A stretch of 64,000 nt of DNA, taken from contig NC_018396.1 in the NCBI RefSeq assembly GCF_000208865.1, positions 3,157,101 to 3,221,100 of the forward strand, in the 5' to 3' direction. The DNA is from Neospora caninum Liverpool (taxonomy: Eukaryota > Apicomplexa > Conoidasida > Eucoccidiorida > Sarcocystidae). The position numbers were made by a program, and so were the translations under genes. The notes below the pieces were generated by a model that saw only the letters and a list, made by a program, of their open reading frames with translations, searched no databases and was not told the DNA's origin. Position 1 is the first letter of the stretch, and each line of letters begins with the position of its first letter. Below are positions 44,318 through 54,950 of the stretch, in pieces.

Positions 44318-47300
44318 TCAGATGCTGGCGCGTTCGGCTCTACCCTCGACCTCTTCCCCACGAGTCACCCAGCAAGCAACAACGGTAATGTCGTCCATCT
44401 TGCCGCCCATAAAGTGTGTGTTGGCTCGCCGCGCGTGTTTCATGAACGGCGTCTTCGCCAGGGGGCTGCGGCTGCAGGAACACCCGCGAGAGGACCAAGA
44501 CACACACACGAGCGTCTCCACATGCGCTTGGCTTTCCAAGTTCGATTTTGAATTTTCACAGATCACCACCGCTCTGTATCGATGCCAAAGGCCCCCCGGC
44601 TACGTGTGATCGCTACCGTCGTGCGCGCCTCCTCGAAGCTTTTGTCTTCTCGTTCTCTCTGACTGCCTCTCTCGCGCGTACCGCCTACTCATTTCCGTCA
44701 CAGCCTCCCGTCATCACGTCGCATTCCGCTCCTCCCCTTCCCCCAGTCTTCGCTGGGTCTTCGCGGCTCATCTGTTCTCCCCCCTCTTCCTCGCCCTACC
44801 TCTCTATCTCTCTCTGTGCACCTTCCTCTCTGTAACCTCTCTGCCTCTCTACCTTTTACGCCTCTGTCTCCATCTCCCCCCAGCGCCTCCCTTTCTCCTC
44901 TCTCCGTCTGCCGTGCACTCTGTCTCTTCCCATCTCTCTCCTCTCGGGCCTCTGCACCACCTGGCCCCTCCGCTTTTCGTCCTCACCTTTTGTAGGCAGC
45001 AGCTTCGGCGACGGCGGCGGCGACCGCCTGTGCGCTCGTGGCTCGGGCGGTGTCCCCGAGGACTTCTGCCTCGTAGGGACTGAGCGCGAGGTTCGCCAGG
45101 GCGCAGATTTCGTAGTCGAACAGGTTGTCGAAGACGCCGTCTGTGCCGAGAAGCACAAGGTCACCCTCCTGGGCGTGGACGGAGTACGCCTGGGCCATGT
45201 CAGGAGTGTCTTGCGGGAGCATGGTGGCGTTTCGCAAGACGCGAACCAGCGTCTCTTTCCCCTGCGCAGCGAGGGCCTGGTACTCGCTTGGCCGAGGCAA
45301 GCAGGAGAGCTGGAAGGGACAGTTGAACTGGTGTTGCTGCTCCTGGGACCGATGCGCACACGTCATGCGGCAGAGGCGATGCTCTCGACGCAGGACCATC
45401 ATCGCGCTGTCGCCCAAACTCGCGATGCCGAGACGCCCCCTCAAGCCGTCCAGACACACCACGAGGGCTGTCGAGCTGCCGAAGCTGCGCGCCTCCTTGA
45501 ATCCTTCCCTCAAAATGCGGAGCGCCTTCCTGGCTGCTTCGTCCACGCGCCCGCCGGACACCGCCCCCTCAGACGACGCCACACACGAAGTGGGCGTCGC
45601 AGGCAAATCGGCAGACACACAGGAGACCGGCGGCGACGGAGAGAAGCCCTCGGGCGAGCGCGGACACGGCCGCTTCCCCCGCGCGCCCGCGTCCTCGCCT
45701 TTCCCCTCGCCGACACTCTCTGTAAGAGGCGGGTCACTGCATGCAGCCTCGCCAACAGGCGGCGAAGAGGGCGAGGCTGGCCTCGAGCCGTCTCCGCCCC
45801 GAGGCCCCTGCGAGAACGCGAGCGACGACGCTCTCTCTGCTCCTCTCTCCGCCGCTGTCTCGGCCTCTCCGCTTCTCCGCACGGCTCCACCCCCGGTTCC
45901 TCCACGGCCTCGTCCGTCTCCGGTTTGCTCGCCGCGGGGCGACGCCAGTCCCTCTGCTCTCCCACCGGCTGCCTCTGCGTCCTGGAAGTCGCGGAACCAA
46001 GGCTCCGCGACCGCGGCTCGCCAACAGCCGACCATCAACTCCTCCGCAAACATGCGCGGGTTGAGGCCGAAGCTTTCCCATTCGCCGACGCCATCTGCGA
46101 CTCCCACGCAGACGGCGGCCGCCGCCGTGCTCACGCCCCTCGTGTCTCTGCTTCGGGGCGGTGCCGCGAAGGGTGACGTGGAGTGCGAGCCGGAGAGACT
46201 CTTGTTCCCCACCTCAGGAATGAGCGAAGAGATCTGCTCGGTAAGCCGAGCGTCGCCTGGACCCGACGCAATGAAAAACGCGTCTGCTCCTCCACTCTCC
46301 AGCTTGTCAGGATGCGGAAGCATGTAGGCCCCGCACTGGAGACACAGGCGCTGCGCCCGTCTCTCTTCGAAACCAGAGGCGCTCTCCTCTCTGCTCTCCT
46401 CCCTGCTTTCTTCGCCGCTTTCTTCGCCGCTTTCTTCGCTGTCTTCCTGGTGTTCTGCTGTCTGGAGCGCTTCGCGCGTCCTCGCCGCCCTGGCGTGCGT
46501 GCCGTCTTCACAGGTGTCTTCGTCTCCGCCCTTCCCGTCCGTTAGTCTGCGTCGCCTCGAGCCTGGCCTCCACTGCGCCAAGTCCCCGCCGGTTTTTTCT
46601 CGCTCTGCATGCGCCTGGGTGAGCTCGAGGAGAATCTCGGGCCCGTGGAGGTGCGCCAGCACTTGCGCTGGCCATGTCGACTCCTGCGTGGTCGTGCCTC
46701 TGCGCGTGGAGCCGTCACCCTGGGGCGTTCCGCGGAGCGGCACAGACCCTCGCTCAGAAGCGGAGACAGAGCGGAAGACGCCGCCTGGGCCCAGAGAGAC
46801 AGTGGAAGGGCGAGTTTTCGGAGAACGGAGACTGCCGACGGCCTCTGACGCCGAAGCTCGCCCGGCAGCTTCTGCATGCGCGGGACTCGCGCCAGCGACG
46901 CTGCTCAGCGCAGCCTTCAGAGAGGCTGCGGCCTCGAGCGAAGCCAGAGACGCATGCAGCGGAGAGGACGGAAAAGAAGTCGAGGACAAGGCAGATGCAC
47001 AGAACGAAGCGAAGACGCCGGACGCCTTCGGAGAGGAAACAGAAGAGCACGGGGGAGAAGCGCTTGCCGCTTCCGGCGAGGGCAGAGGACGCGCGTGGCG
47101 GAGGGCGTGCGAAAGCGAAGGCGCGTGAGCCTGAGAGAAGAGAGACGGATGCGAGGAAAGACGACGAAAAGGATGGGACTGATCGAGGCAACAAACAGAC
47201 TCGATATCTTTAGTTCCTCGAGAAAGCGTCGGAACTGCAAAAGTATCGAGAAAGGACGCGGTCGGCTCTCCTTTCCTCGTAGAGTCTCTGTCGGAGTACA

Positions 47301-50300
47301 CACTCGTCTTTCTAATGGACACAGTTGCTCTCCAACTCTATGCACACTTGTCCCTCCCACGACCGTGGCCCCTGTCTTTTTTTCTTTCTCACAGAGGTTC
47401 TGATCTCGCAGTCTCCCTCCCTGCAGGGGCTGCTCCCTCCGTGCCTCTCCGCCGCCTTCCTGTCTTGCATTGTCTGCGCCCCGCCAGGCCCTCTCCCGTG
47501 AAGTTGCCTCGCACTCTCTCCTTCTGCGTCTTTTCTCGTTCTCTCTTTCGCATTCCTTCTGGCCTTCTTTCCTCCCTCTCCTTTCTCTCTGCAACGCTTC
47601 TCGCTCCTCCCTCGCCGTGGATTTTCTTCGGGTCCCCTCTTTCCCGTTTTTTCGTCTTCTCCCCCAAATCCTCTTTTTCTCACCCCGTTTCTCGTCGTCT
47701 TCCCGTCGCCAACACCGCCGGCGCCCTCGTCTGCGCCCATCGCCTGGCGCCCGTCCGTCGCTCCTTCCTCTTGTCGGCCTCTGCGTGGCTTGGAACACCC
47801 CGACATCGTGGCCTCGTGGAATAGCGCACGTTCGCGCTCTCCTTCCTCCCCCTGAGAAAGGTGCCCCGCCCCGCGTGTGTCTCCCGCTATCCCGTCGGGC
47901 TCCCGCCGACATTGCCTTCCCCAGGCCGTTGCGGACCCTGAACAGCCTCTCTCGCTTGCTCGGGCTCGGCCGCCTGCAGCCCCTCCGACGTCTCTGTCGC
48001 CAGCGCACGACGGAGGCGCGGGAGTATTCCCGTCTTCTGGGACTTGCCTCTCCCGCCTCTGAGAGCGCGAGCTCGGTGTGTGCCTGCCCTGCGAGCCCGC
48101 ACTCCGCAGTGGCTCCTTCTCTTCCCCCCCCTCTCGCGATGAACGCGCACACAGCTGGTGCATGCAGGCAGGTGAAAGCTCGCGTGTGGGAGCGCCAGAG
48201 GAAGCGGAGGAAGCGGAGGAAGAGGAGGAAGCAGAGGAAGCGGAGGAAGAGGAGGAAGCGGAGGAAGAGGAGGAAGAGGAGGAAGAGGAGGAAGCGGCGG
48301 GGCGCCTGCGGCCATTCGCCTCCGAGACATCGGAAGAAGCTGCGCTCCCGGACACACTGGCGGCGACCGAGAGAGGCGAAGAAGAAAGGGAAAACAACGG
48401 CGACAGGCCGTGGTACAGAAGCTGGACGTTGAAACCTCCCCCGAGAAGGCCCCGCGCAACAGACCCCAAAGTTGTCCCTCGCTCCGCCGTACTGGCAAAA
48501 GACAAGGCAGCAGAGTGAGAAGAGGAAGAAGGAGAGGGAGAAGGAGAGAGAGAAGGATAGAGAGAAGGAGAGGGAGAAGGAGAGGGAGAAGGAGAGGGAG
48601 AAGGAGAGGGAAGAGACTGCATGGTATTTTTGTGGGGAGGCAGCCTCACCGTGTCACGTCTGGGGCTGTCTCGTGGCTGCGGCATCTCGTTCGCCTTCTG
48701 TGTTTGCGTTCCTTTTTCCACTCGCGAGGAGCAGTCTTCTCGCGTCTCGTCCTCTTCGCAAGAAGTGCAGGCGTCGACTAAGCAGCGGTCGTACGAGTAG
48801 AAGACGAACCGGTTTCTCTGTCTCGCGTGCTGCGACTCTCCCTCGGATTCAAGTTTCCTGAGTGTTTCGTCAAAGTTCGGGTAGAAGCAAGCGGAAGACA
48901 TGGCGAGCGCAGAAGACAGCTGCAGCGTCGGCGAGAAGAAGGAAGAGCTCCGGTAGGAGACTTCCCAAGACTCAGCAGCCGGCGGAAAAGAAGCCGGCGA
49001 ACGCGACGGGTTGTAAGTCGTCGGACGCAGCCCAAGGGAGGCCTCGCGGGACGCGCAGCCTGCATCAAGGCGCGAGGCGGCGCCCGACTTGGAGGGCGGT
49101 CGACATCGAAAGAGGGCCGCGACGTTGTTCAGGTTGCCGTTGCCGTCCTGAGCGAAGACACAGGCAAGACGCCCAACGGGGGAATGGCACGCCGACAATT
49201 TCAAGCCCTCCGAGAACGAGGAGATCTCCGCAGTGCAGTCGAGAGAGCGTAGAGGAAAGAGGGGATGGCGGTTCCACGAGCAAGACGCACGGACCACCGT
49301 CGAAAGAGAGGAGAGCAGAGGTACGCGAGATGAACACACACACGGCGGAAGAGAGAGACAGAAAAAGAGAAAGACAAGCAGATGAGAGAGAGAGAGGGTA
49401 GAACTTAGGAGAGACGCCGGGAGGCGAGACAGTCGGAGGCCTTCCGTGCGATCTTTCCTGCAGTGGTCTCTGGTGTATCCTTACATCTCGTACGGGGAAC
49501 GCGTGGCTGCATCTCCACTCGCCATCGACAATGAACTTGAACTGAAGGTGCAAAACTGCGAGGCCGTCGCCGCTCGCAGCCGCGACCCAAACCGGCGCCG
49601 TGGAGTCCGCTTCGGAGGACGATGGGGGCGCCTCGGCGTCTCGCAAGGAGGGGAGATCTCCGTCTTCCCGTTTCGTCGCACTCGTCCACTTGGACGCCGA
49701 AAAGAGAGACGCAAAGGACAACAGCGAAGCCTTCTCTTTTCCGTCCCGGCTCGGTAGCCTCTCCGTGGAGACCGGCTCTCCGCGGTGCGCCTCGCTCTCG
49801 CAGGAAGTGTCTCTTTTCCTCTCCTCGTTCCCAGCCAACCCGCGTCGTCAGCGATCGCAGAGATGCGCCGTCTCGCTCGCTCCCGCGCCGGCGCGTGCAA
49901 AAGGGCGGGGGAGAAAACCTCCAGCAGATTCAAACGGAAACAGCACTCGCCCGGGTGCCAGGACAGCCGAACTCGCTCCGCCCACGGCGGATCCGAGAAG
50001 GCGCCCGCCACCTGAAGGAGAAGAGAGGAACACCGCGGACCCGAGCGCGAAACGCATGAAACGAGACGCGGAAGCAGACCGAGCTGAGAGGCGTCGCTCC
50101 TTCTTCGCTGCGGGCAGAGAACTCCGCAGCCCAGGAACACACGCTGGAGACACACTGGACACCGAATCCGTTCTTCGAAGACACAGCAGACACAGCTGAA
50201 ACACTTGCTCCCGTGCATCGACATCGCAGCACACGTGGGAAGGACAGCCGAGAACCCTCGGAAAAAGGCAAATCCTCACCTCAACGACTTCCGCACCGGG

Positions 50301-53300
50301 TTCTGTCCAGCGGACGATGAGTTCGGGTATACGTACACCTCCACCTGGCGCTCCTTGTCCGCGTGGTCCCCGGCCTTGCGCGGAGTTCGCTGACTGCCGC
50401 CCTCCCGCTCCGCAGCCTCCACCCGTCGCTCCCTGTCCGGTATCGCACGACTTGTGATGCTGTGGATCCCGCCTCCTCTCGTCGCCGCCAGGGCCCGGGG
50501 CAGCGCGCGCCTTCGGAACTTCCTTTTCTGTCTCCGCTGCATGCGAGCGAGCGCTTTCCGTCGACGGCACTGGACGAGCGGGCGACGCGGCACACTGACA
50601 AGAATCAGAAGGCGGAAGCGGCTCTGAGAGACCGTCGGCAGGCGGAGGAGTAAATCCCGGCTCCTGAGGCGCATGAGGCAAGCACAGGTGCACGCGTTCC
50701 CACCTCTTCTCTGTCTCCGGGTCCTCCTGTCCTGCCTCTTCCCGCTTCCTTCCAGGTGAAGCCGATGAAGGAAGCGAACACGCGGCAACGGCACTTCTCA
50801 AAGCAGCGCTTTCATGTCTCGTGGCATGCGGAGACTCTTCGCGTTGAGTCGCTTGTTCTTCCTTCGCCGGTCCTCCTCGCTTGGCGTTTGGATGGGCCTC
50901 GGCATCTTGCAGAAGCATCTGTTCACACACGCTTGTCTTCTCTGTTGATTTGCCTCGTTGATCTTCTTCCTCATACCGCAAAGAGCGAGACACGTCAGCG
51001 TTCGACTGGCTGACGGTTTCCACTCCCTTCTCCAGCAGACCCGCCGGGACGGTCTTCGCCAGTTTCGGAGTTCCATTCAAGTTCCTCGACTCGACCAGCT
51101 TGCCTGTGTCTCCTTTTCCCTCCTCTCCCACCTCCCCCTCGAGTTTCGTCCCTTCTGTCTCCTCGGCTTCTTCTCGAGAAGAGGGGGTCTCCTCTTCCAC
51201 CACACCCTGGAGCCTGCTTTGACCCTGCGACGAGTCGAAAGGCCTGCTCTCACGTGCCGTCTTCTCCGGGCCGTTCGCCTCCACTGCGCGCTCTCGCTTC
51301 CCGTTTGAAGTCTCAGCTCCAGCTTTTTCCTTTCCTCCTTGTGCTCTGGGACTGCCTGTATCTCCTCTAACTCCCGTCAAGTGAAATGTTTCCTCTTCTT
51401 CACTCTCGGGCAGCGTGGATACTTCAGCCTCGACCTTCTCTGGAGGTTCTCCGTCGGTGTCAACTCTCGTTTTCTCCTTCTCCCGCATAACACGCGGGCC
51501 TCCCTCCCTCTCGCTCTGCTCTCGGGCTCCATCCTTGCCTTCCGTCCCGCTTTCTTTCCTCTCCGGCGTGTCCTCGACCTTCTCCTTTGCGTCTTCCACC
51601 TTCGTCTCCGTCCTCGCTGGATGCGCCTCCTCGCGATTCACGCCCCTCACTCGCTTCCTCTCACCCTCCTTCGCCTTCTCGTCGCCTCCCGGTCTTTCGC
51701 TCGTGTGCGTCGTTTCCTTCGCTTGCTCGCGGAGCGTCTCTCGTCCGCTCCCTCTCACTCTGGTGTTCCCCTGTGCGCCTCCTGAGGGCGTCAGACCCCC
51801 CCCGACCGCTTCGTCGCCGACATCAAAGGCCCTCGCTGTCTCCGTGTCTCCGTTGACGCTGAGCCGCGCCGGTGCGCTCCCGAGGGCCCCCACCGCGACT
51901 GGAGGCCCAAGTCGCCTGCCCCGGGCACTGACGCCTGCGCTGCCCCACGCGGGACCCTCCGTGGAAGTCCTCACGAGACGCCGAGAGAGAGGAGAAGCAG
52001 GAGAAGCGACCGGAGAGGAGGCAACGCGCCTGTTCCTTGCGGCCCGCTCGCGTCCTCGTGAGGAGACAGTCTCTTCTCTCTTCCGCTCTTTCCAATCGCG
52101 GCAGCTCCCGCCGCGGAAAACAGATTCTCGCGTCGAGGTGAACGTGCGGCGACCGCCCCTCAAACGACCGGAGGGAGGCAAGGAAACGAACGCGTCGGTC
52201 GGCTCGAAAGACACATTTCCGTGAGTTGAAAACGTCCTCTCTGGAGCGCTGGAAGGCGACGCTGTCCCGACGCCGGGGGGCATAATCCCTTTTTCTCCGT
52301 TTTCCCCATTTCCCCCGTTTTCCGCGACTTCCTGGCCATTCTCGGCAGTGCGCAACAGAAGCGGACGCCAGGGTGCTCTCACATGGCAGGACTTGGGCTC
52401 TTCCGCATCTCCTACGTTCCTCACACATGGCGCGCCTCCGGCCCCAAGAGGCAAAGAAGCGGTGTCGCCGCCACTCACGCCGTGTGGGTCTCCGCCAGCT
52501 GTACCGACACTGGAGTGTGACTTGGACTCTTCAGCGCCGTTTCGACTCCCCGCGAACTCCACCTCTGGCCGGCTCTCGCCTGTATCTCCCTCGAAACCCT
52601 CCGTCCTAGAGGCAGGAAAGCGAGGACTCTCGCCTCCTAGCTGCTGGGAAGAGGAAGCGACCGAGGAGCCCGGAGTGCGCCTGGCACGCCGCTGTTCAAA
52701 GAGAGAGTAGAACCTCTCCAGCTTCTCTGCAGTCTCTTTGGGGATTCGGGTTCTCTTCCCGACGTCGCCCACGCAGACTGAGCAGGAGGCGCCTGTTTCT
52801 TTCCCTCTCCTCGCGCATGGTTCTTCCTCGCCAGTTGCCCCTCGAGAGAAACGGCGAGAAGAAGGGAAACCGGAGGACGGGGAAGCAAAAGCGAGAGACG
52901 AAGAAGGGCCAGCCACAGGTCTGCCACGGGTTCCAGTCGCCTTCGCGTGGCCGAGCTCGTTGGCTTCTCGTGAGTCCCTTTCCTTCCTAGCATGCGGCGA
53001 GTGAAGCGCCAGAAGAGAGAGAGAAAACGGAGAGGTCGCGTGCGTTGCCTCGGCTTCCTCCTCAAAACCTGTCCGTCTCTGAAAACGATTTTTTGTCTTG
53101 TCGTGGAGACGCTGAAGAAACCGAAGCATGGAGAGGGCGTGGTTCAGCATTCTCTCATGCTCGCGCTCTGCCTCCGAACGCAAAGACGAGACGGACGAAC
53201 CGGACGCAGTGTGGTCTCCAGAGCCGGGAGGGGTCGCAGGAAACCGTCGATGCCTCTCTTCGTGTCTTTCTCCATCGCTCTCCAGTTCTCTCTCCATCTC

Positions 53301-54950
53301 TTCGCCGCTCCTGTGTACGAACACCCAACTGCTGGCTTCGGCCGTCGCGCTGGCCGCTGATCGAGCCTTCCTCTCGAAGGACGAAACCCGCGTTGCTCCT
53401 TCTCTTTCTGCCTCTCGGCCCCAGCTCCCTTCCCTGTTTCCGAATCCTCCTGGGTTCATGCAGGAAGAAAACGGTTCGTCCTCGAAGTCCTGTCGCACCT
53501 CCGTCTCCTTCCCGGCACTGCCCGCCCGCTGCGTGGCAGCGTCTGCCTCTGCGCGCCGCATCTGACTTTGACTCGAAACCGAGGCCACAGAAGAGACAGA
53601 AGACACAGACGAAGCGAAAGCAACGGACGCCGAAACCGATTCGTCGTGTGGCATCTCGCCGACGGAAGAAAGGGTTGATAAGGATGTGCAGGCACTGACG
53701 GTTTGCGCCATGTCTTCTCCGTCCGTGTCCTTCTCTCTTCCACACGCAGACGCAGCTGGCAAGCGAGGCCGACCCTCTCGTGAGTCATCCTCAGCGACTG
53801 CGAGGCCACCGCTCTGGCGACTCATCAAAGCATCTAGACTGGACGGACTCTCCGCCTCTCGCGTTTTGCTGGCAGCCGCAACAGCCTCGTGCGACAGGTG
53901 CGCTCCGCACGCAGCGACAAAGTGGGTTGTTGAGAATCGAAACTCGGTATCCGTCGCGTTTTCGCTCCCCCGTCTGCTCGCCGCATGCCCGGCATCTGCG
54001 CTTTGTGTCTTGGGTGCTGGTCTGGCGAGGCAAAAAGACGAAACAGAGAGACACGGAAAGCCTGTTTTCCCGGCTTGGCCTTCCCTCTCCTTCCCGCTGG
54101 AACGCGCCTCCCTGTCGTCCATGTTTCTCCTCGGATCCGCCCCGTTTCCCTTCTCCGTTGTCGGGTCCTCGCTGAGCTGCACAGTATCTCGCGTTTCTTC
54201 CTCGTGTGGAAAGGCTGAGACACGCACTAGCTCCGCGTCACCTCCCTTCACGGCCGTCGGCCTTGCACGCGGTCGCCCGTCGCACGAGAAACCCTCTTCC
54301 CCGCGTCCGCTCGTGGCGCGCTCTCTCCGGCTTTTGTTTGGTTGCGGCCACAGGGTGAGATTCGCGACGCCGGTGACCTTGCGTGCTTGGCGGCAGCTGG
54401 TTTCTTCCGCCTTTTCTTTCACAGAATTCTTTCCCCCAGAGCGTCTCCTATCCGGCCTCTGGGTCAACGACCCCAGATTGCGAACCTGCAAACCTCCGGC
54501 TGATTCGAGATTCCCCGCCTCTGTCTCTTCGCTGTCACTTTCGTAAGAAGGTGAACCTGCTGCTCGCGCCTTCTTGTGCAAAGACATGCTCTCTCTGCTG
54601 TTCTTCCCGTCCACAAACGGGGTTCTAGTTGTCAGAAGAAGCGCCTGGTCACTGGGCGTGGCTCTGTCCCTCTTCCTGCGCCTCACGTCTCGCTTTTCTA
54701 AAGGCCCGTTCGCCTTCTTCTCGCCCCTTCGCTCAGCCCCCGGAGCCGTGGCAGACAGCCGAAGTGAGCACTTTTGTATTGGAGCGGACGGGGAGACGAG
54801 GGGGAGGATGAGACTGGACAGCGTGCAGGCAAGACGCAGGGGAGAAGGCGAAAAAGAGGGGAAATCGGAAGAAGAACCACAAGTCTTCGAGCGTCCTATT
54901 GACGTCGGACCCGCCGCGCCACCCCCGTTCGAGACACTGGCCGTGTGCAT
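44318..54950 (-). CDS. Giant CBM48 (glycogen/starch-binding) - PTC7-like PP2C protein phosphatase fusion, 2957 aa
   Basis: Exons (minus): 54950-50280, 50011-49919, 49541-49485, 49147-47393, 47130-44987, 44471-44318; 8874 nt, all phases agree (0,0,0,0,2). Exon 1 gives 1557 mostly disordered residues. CBM48 (about 1542-1622) is split over four exons: PELIVRWTEPGAEVVE, VAGAFSDPPWAERVRLSW, FKFIVDGEWRCSHAFPVRD and DGNGNLNNVAALF, the AMPK-beta glycogen-binding pattern with the KFxVDGxW core. A linker with poly-Ser and Ser-Pro tracts follows. The PP2C domain (about 2460-2957) has PTC7-type motifs: GGADAFFIA, GVADGVGEWESFG, GSSTALVV, ASLGDSAMMVLR, SQEQQHQFNCPFQLS, GDLVLLGTDGVFDNL and GGKMDDITVVACWV, so the metal-binding Asp residues are present. 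Inferred role: dephosphorylation at amylopectin granules. Donor GTTTTC after exon 2 is weak, and the exon 3 start could be 49555. The exon 4-5 junction (47393/47130) decides whether this is one gene or two. Confidence 0.72.
48198..48297 (-). repeat. Coding GGAAGC/GGAAGA-type repeat (poly-Ser tract)
   Basis: Purine-rich GAGGAAGCGGAGGAAGAGGA-type hexamer/nonamer repeats run on the plus strand. On the minus strand they read as a Ser homopolymer with a few Ala residues (exon 4 of the CBM48-PP2C gene), between the CBM48 and the phosphatase domain. Six-frame openness is expected here, so the reading rests on the flanking frame. Confidence 0.85.
48517..48612 (-). repeat. Coding GAGAAGGAGAGG repeat (Ser-Pro tract)
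   Basis: Tandem GAGAAGGAGAGG units on the plus strand, encoding alternating Ser-Pro on the minus strand in exon 4 of the CBM48-PP2C gene. A GAGAAGGATAGA variant interrupts the array. Confidence 0.85.

Follow-up and report, generated by a model that had tools for sequence, protein, structure and literature searches.

The gene described here lies on the minus strand of a 64,000-nucleotide stretch of Neospora caninum Liverpool DNA (contig NC_018396.1; C12:3157101-3221100 of a 57.5 Mb genome of 14 contigs), called the window below. Its gene model carries a carbohydrate-binding module (CBM) of family 48, CBM48, followed by a PTC7/PBCP-type PP2C phosphatase domain, and this fusion is very likely real. 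The product is probably a glucan-tethered Ser/Thr protein phosphatase that acts on granule-bound enzymes of amylopectin metabolism. Computation supports the fusion itself and how widely it is conserved, the intactness of the binding and metal motifs, and the predicted folds of relatives. The features are as follows, with exons 2 and 3 as drawn in an earlier note made from the letters of this DNA.

50280..54950, minus strand: exon 1, long and mainly low-complexity N-terminal part, no Pfam family
final 20 codons of exon 1, from 50339, minus strand: CBM48 start, GVRIPELIVRWTEPGAEVVEV
49919..50011, minus strand: exon 2 of the earlier note, CBM48 stretch, VAGAFSDPPWAERVRLSWHPGECCFRLNLLE
49542..49918, minus strand: "intron" of the earlier note between exons 2 and 3, coding in the Toxoplasma gondii, Hammondia and Besnoitia models
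49485..49541, minus strand: exon 3 of the earlier note, CBM48 core, FKFIVDGEWRCSHAFPVRD, including the ligand-site Lys and Trp
47393..49147, minus strand: exon 4, CBM48 end, conserved blocks and then a Ser/Pro-rich linker
down to 49109 in exon 4, minus strand: CBM48 end, DGNGNLNNVAALF
after the CBM48 in exon 4, minus strand: conserved blocks YNPSRSP, FFSP, FYPN and FVFYSYDR
44987..47130, minus strand: exon 5, linker followed by the greater part of the PP2C domain
46621..46707, minus strand: conserved linker element in exon 5, TRRGTTTQESTWPAQVLAHLHGPEILLEL, LRRxxS/T-type motif and WP helix
44987..46335, minus strand: PP2C catalytic domain, first part, with a low-complexity insert between motifs
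in exon 5, minus strand: PP2C motifs, GGADAFF region 46296-46273, VADGVGEW 46101-46078, LGDSA 45417-45403 and TDGVFDN 45144-45124
44318..44471, minus strand: exon 6, PP2C C-terminus and stop, GGKMDDITVVACWV, with DDIT at 44395-44384

The case for a single gene is formed by the missing early start, the conserved linker upstream of it and the joined proteins of relatives. As the earlier note had stated, no ATG stands ahead of the PP2C domain: the frame opens at 47337 and the first in-frame ATG, at 46323, is already inside the start of the domain (CGAYML, 46335). The conserved linker element (46707-46621) lies upstream of this ATG, so the coding start must be further upstream, in another exon. 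Both domains were identified on single transcript-assembly proteins of Rhytidocystis, Polyplicarium and Platyproteum, with names in the style of Trinity or of transcriptome shotgun assemblies, and GHVP is a fourth case. Two neighbouring genes, one for a CBM48 protein and one for a PP2C, could have been falsely merged, exon 4 ending in sequence with two possible donors and the window gene being known from genomic DNA; this reading was rejected because a conserved segment precedes the earliest possible ATG and because both domains are joined in transcript-assembly proteins and gene models of many relatives, and we consider it very improbable. The relatives thus strongly support the fusion proposed earlier, with the exception of its exon 2/3 detail.

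The relatives were collected in three protein searches where the candidates with most shared words were scored, so that absences mean little. The search with residues 1520-2957 gave T. gondii (3050 aa), Hammondia (2449 aa) and Besnoitia (2906 aa), all with PF16561. The PP2C-part query (1862 aa, compared with proteins of about 1024-3258 aa) gave seven matches: T. gondii, Hammondia, Besnoitia, two from Rhytidocystis, Chromera velia and Vitrella. The third search (about 482-1535 aa) gave 98 matches, with fused proteins of Polyplicarium, Cardiosporidium (partial), Platyproteum, four Eimeria and Cyclospora, as well as metagenome proteins of about 500-620 aa. The GHVS accession belongs to Rhytidocystis sp. 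ex Travisia forbesii (PMC7522995, from the part available). AMPK1_CBM was identified at E up to 0.1 in 30 of the 47 relatives scanned (P0001-P0048 minus P0041), and the CBM is ahead of the PP2C wherever both positions could be read. The same order was therefore found in other coccidia, as the earlier note had expected, although a coccidian feature is too narrow a description, the fusion being present also in Chromera, Vitrella, Polyplicarium, Platyproteum and metagenome sequences; judged by the sequences compared, it is older than was supposed. Plasmodium, Babesia and Theileria are not named among the 98 or 7 matches listed, many of which are without names, from a capped set of candidates of limited length, so that absence is not implied. 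The matches listed name Toxoplasma, Hammondia and Besnoitia models of this gene but no annotated N. caninum protein.

The tree comprises 62 PP2C domains out of 102 rows. Every named apicomplexan and chromerid is included in a group of 47 rows, separated from 15 others (14 outgroup rows and P0048) with support 100/98. Toxoplasma, Hammondia and Besnoitia are joined to the window with support 100/100, and this set is joined to Eimeria and Cyclospora with 99/96. On the tree, six changes of the CBM label are needed (at least three of them forced by starred branches), against a shuffle mean of 21. A single early gain followed by several losses would fit; several gains are also possible. The placement of some long branches, P0044 and P0046, is unsure. 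Both are CBM48-PP2C proteins, and by eye an IQ-like stretch precedes the CBM in P0044; a Pfam IQ match was identified in 1 of the 47 members scanned.

The CBM48 assignment of the earlier note was confirmed by profile on its own splice (AMPK1_CBM, 48 bits, cut-off 26.8, E 1.5e-12), and PF16561 is also passed by the T. gondii protein with its insert (38.8 bits, cut-off 26.8). The intron at 49918-49542 did not hold, the same stretch being coding in the T. gondii, Hammondia and Besnoitia gene models. When the T. gondii protein was compared with the window by tblastn, coding-like similarity was found at 49969-49877 (frame -1), continuing exon 2 as far as 49877, and at 49817-49485 (frame -3); with the coding reading in relatives, this similarity led to rejection of the intron as first drawn. 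The earlier junction cuts out a conserved stretch directly ahead of FKFIVDGEW (..AVLHLQ), and the conserved end VWVAAASGDGLAVLHLQFKFIVDGEW holds the CBM stretch lost in that splice. Because this stretch is removed, the CBM48 is too short in the earlier model, with a PPW-to-Lys spacing of 22 residues; in relatives the spacing is mostly 30-36, reaching 100 and 118 in Rhytidocystis, 133 in T. gondii and Hammondia and 163 in Besnoitia. The coding reading of relatives, this spacing and the similarity in two frames show that an insert of some 100 residues or more interrupts the CBM48 in this lineage. In this assembly the two frames might be connected through a shorter intron, for which there are 26 frame-keeping GT-AG options, or through a sequence difference.

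Two Trp, a Lys and an Asn, which we take to be the glucan-contact residues, are all present in the window CBM48. The second Trp and NN are kept in 28 of 29 CBM48 domains, the exception being Vitrella P0007, lacking both; the presence of the Lys was built into the search pattern for ligand-site residues. CBM48 and PP2C folds were modelled on relatives, with subsets of 46 and 38 homologues as AlphaFold2 (AF2) inputs. The Cyclospora CBM48 model matches a structure of the AMPK beta-2 CBM solved with bound sugar. The AF2 model of Rhytidocystis, with a similar insert, has confident strands on either side of it, so that a split CBM fold is suggested there by strand order and by the predicted local distance difference test (pLDDT). 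A Foldseek search with this model gave PP2C-type rows only among the best 50, and the VIA-align result list, likewise of PP2C rows, says nothing of the CBM. In Vitrella brassicaformis, P0040 contains a tandem pair of CBM48 ahead of the linker motif and the PP2C.

The PP2C domain passes its Pfam profile narrowly (22 bits, cut-off 20.3). Among five relatives, three pass (27, 23.6 and 23.8 bits) and two are below the cut-off, T. gondii with 20.0 and Chromera with 16.7. The complete motif set reported earlier was found in the window: GG.DA.F (D), ADG, GDS, TDG and DDIT. All five metal-site motifs are present in 11 of 11 sequences chosen from the 102, the window included, and the predicted models of relatives recover the PP2C fold. 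The closest known type of PP2C here is PBCP. No dual-specificity phosphatase (DSP) family was identified in four window pieces (Pfam, E up to 10) or in five relatives (E up to 1), and no AMPKBI domain is listed in the whole T. gondii, Besnoitia, Rhytidocystis, Chromera and Vitrella P0007 proteins (E up to 1). Exon-by-exon scans of the genome gave 39 matches to PF00481 (50 candidates scored) and 4 to PF16561; the window gene is absent from both lists, so plain family scans of the DNA overlook it. Elsewhere in the genome PP2C matches are weak, scoring 65 bits at most where the window's own scores 406, and no second copy of this CBM48 was identified in the genome search.

The linker pattern, LRRxxS/T with a WP helix, was defined after inspection of the sequences and is present in 19 of 102 sequences, against 10 of 4900 shuffles. 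The carriers are the window, T. gondii, Hammondia, Besnoitia, Eimeria, Cyclospora, Rhytidocystis, Polyplicarium, Cardiosporidium, GHVP, GHVN, Chromera, Cryptosporidium andersoni and two Vitrella proteins, where P0016 and P0021 lack a CBM match; Platyproteum has a near form, LYRITS..WP. The LRRxxS/T site resembles the consensus of basophilic kinases such as CDPK or AMPK, which is a lead only. The segment would probably be a phospho-regulated adaptor ahead of the catalytic domain.

In the proposed mechanism, a very large Ser/Thr phosphatase would be anchored to amylopectin by an N-terminal CBM48 with a probably disordered insert, and its targets on the granule would be the enzymes that make and degrade this polysaccharide, as a possible counterpart of the CBM20-bearing CDPK2. 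Delivery to the granule via the CBM48 is plausible, given the contact residues kept and the match of the Cyclospora model to the sugar-bound module. Glucan binding and phosphatase activity are inferred, as are the location on the granule, the substrates, the regulation and the opposition to CDPK2. Wider and more tentative, and in our view somewhat doubtful, is an ancient alveolate phospho-switch on the granule, where a PP2C anchored by a (split) CBM48 would oppose glucan-anchored kinases (CDPK2 with its CBM20) and be switched via the conserved LRRxxS/T site; after laforin and SEX4 it would be the third joining of a phosphatase with a starch module, kept from chromerids to coccidia.

Several points weigh against a glucan-tethered protein phosphatase. 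The Hammondia protein is flagged UNVERIFIED_CONTAM by its source, and for the window gene the fusion is known here from genomic sequence and relatives. The six changes needed for the CBM label imply that losses or gains of the module occurred several times. In the Vitrella paralogue P0007 the second Trp, NN and the linker pattern are all missing, and in Cryptosporidium andersoni P0021 the PP2C and the linker motif are present with zero AMPK1_CBM match. The genus Cryptosporidium stores amylopectin; because of the C. andersoni protein, starch storage against CBM presence is not a clean test. PP1 and PP2A influence polysaccharide and amylopectin levels in T. gondii (PMC11414933, in the part available), so a role opposing CDPK2 may be unneeded. 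The words CBM, PP2C, PPM and laforin are all absent from PMC9729606.

A CBM48 that no longer binds glucan and is now a protein-protein or regulatory module would be consistent with P0007 and with a C. andersoni protein that manages without a recognisable CBM, and the insert could hinder folding; we hold this to be rather unlikely, since the second Trp and NN are otherwise so widely kept and the Rhytidocystis strands are confident on both flanks of the insert. Less likely still is a glucan phosphatase removing phosphate from the polysaccharide itself, like SEX4 or laforin, with PP2C replacing the DSP. Members of the plant SEX4/LSF1 group carry a CBM48, and LSF1 is the nearest PDB sequence to the Chromera CBM48, but PP2C is a protein Ser/Thr phosphatase fold, here nearest to PBCP, and DSP families are missing from the scanned window pieces and relatives. 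Reversible glucan phosphorylation occurs in T. gondii, which also has a laforin (PMC9254107, in the part available), and a putative laforin is reported for N. caninum (PMC2714694).

The proposed glucan-tethered protein phosphatase is a new pairing of known parts. PTC7/PBCP-type PP2C proteins (PBCP 6ae9, plant PP2C 55/80) share the catalytic domain, the plant matches being without CBM in the precomputed Pfam column and the 14 PP2C outgroup rows standing apart from the window's group in the tree. Plant SEX4 and LSF1 share the CBM48-type module, their catalytic part being a DSP ahead of the CBM, whereas in the window gene the PP2C follows it. AMPK beta is a kinase subunit without PP2C. It likewise has an AMPK-type CBM (TgAMPK-beta, TGGT1_268960; PMC9880002, in part), and a separate two-exon CBM locus on C10 of this genome is presumably AMPK beta. 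TgLaforin, from the same parasites, has a CBM20 broken by long linkers, comparable to the split CBM48, joined to a DSP instead of a PP2C; CDPK2 of T. gondii combines a signalling enzyme with a starch-binding module and acts on glucan metabolism, being a kinase with CBM20 whereas the window protein is a predicted phosphatase with CBM48 (both PMC9254107, in part).

No paper on the pairing of CBM48 with PP2C was found in a full-text literature search, with most subscription journals outside it. The proteins of relatives are listed in databases under names like "PPM-type phosphatase domain-containing protein" and, as far as seen, are not described. The T. gondii protein (P0001) has a computed mass of 329.6 kDa; Table 1 of PMC8785970, in the part of that paper available, lists 17 phosphatases, none with a mass near this. 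The same fusion in related parasites and algae suggests an old, undescribed starch-granule enzyme. The question of how coccidia switch between building and using amylopectin is still open and is linked to the persistence of cysts; if the reading is true, a phosphatase with its own starch-binding module, also present in photosynthetic relatives, would be a testable partner of CDPK2 and would show that signalling can be coupled to storage glucan in a new manner, and with a split CBM48 the split CBM20 of TgLaforin would not be a one-off.

Of the earlier gene model, the six exons do join in phase, giving 2957 aa without internal stop, and it is very probably wrong at exon 2/3, as indicated by the relatives' models and tblastn. 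Its start, MHTASVSNG, resembles MHAASESNG of T. gondii P0001. Two exon-4 donors, 47392 and 47683, are each in phase with the acceptor at 47130; the latter (..KTTRNG) is closer by eye to T. gondii KKTRNA, and these two stretches are left unpaired in the alignment built on the longer exon 4. The donor may be 47683 rather than 47392, and the fusion would be kept either way. The Pfam scan was run on pieces of the earlier model, the N-terminal part of exon 5 being outside them, and no family was identified in exon 1 or the exon-4 frame. Simple-repeat tracts of Ser/Pro and Ser/Ala are found inside exon 4 (48200-48620).

Two further AMPK1_CBM loci were identified in the genome. L004 1057-3027 (G000:C12:1080020-1080154, 27.4 bits) is a long open reading frame (ORF), by eye similar to a glycogen debranching enzyme, and L003 1498-1926 (G000:C3:1183405-1183527) is a short exon-like ORF with the second half of AMPK1_CBM (YKLVVDGEWVCVADAPKQIDSLGNENNFLQV).

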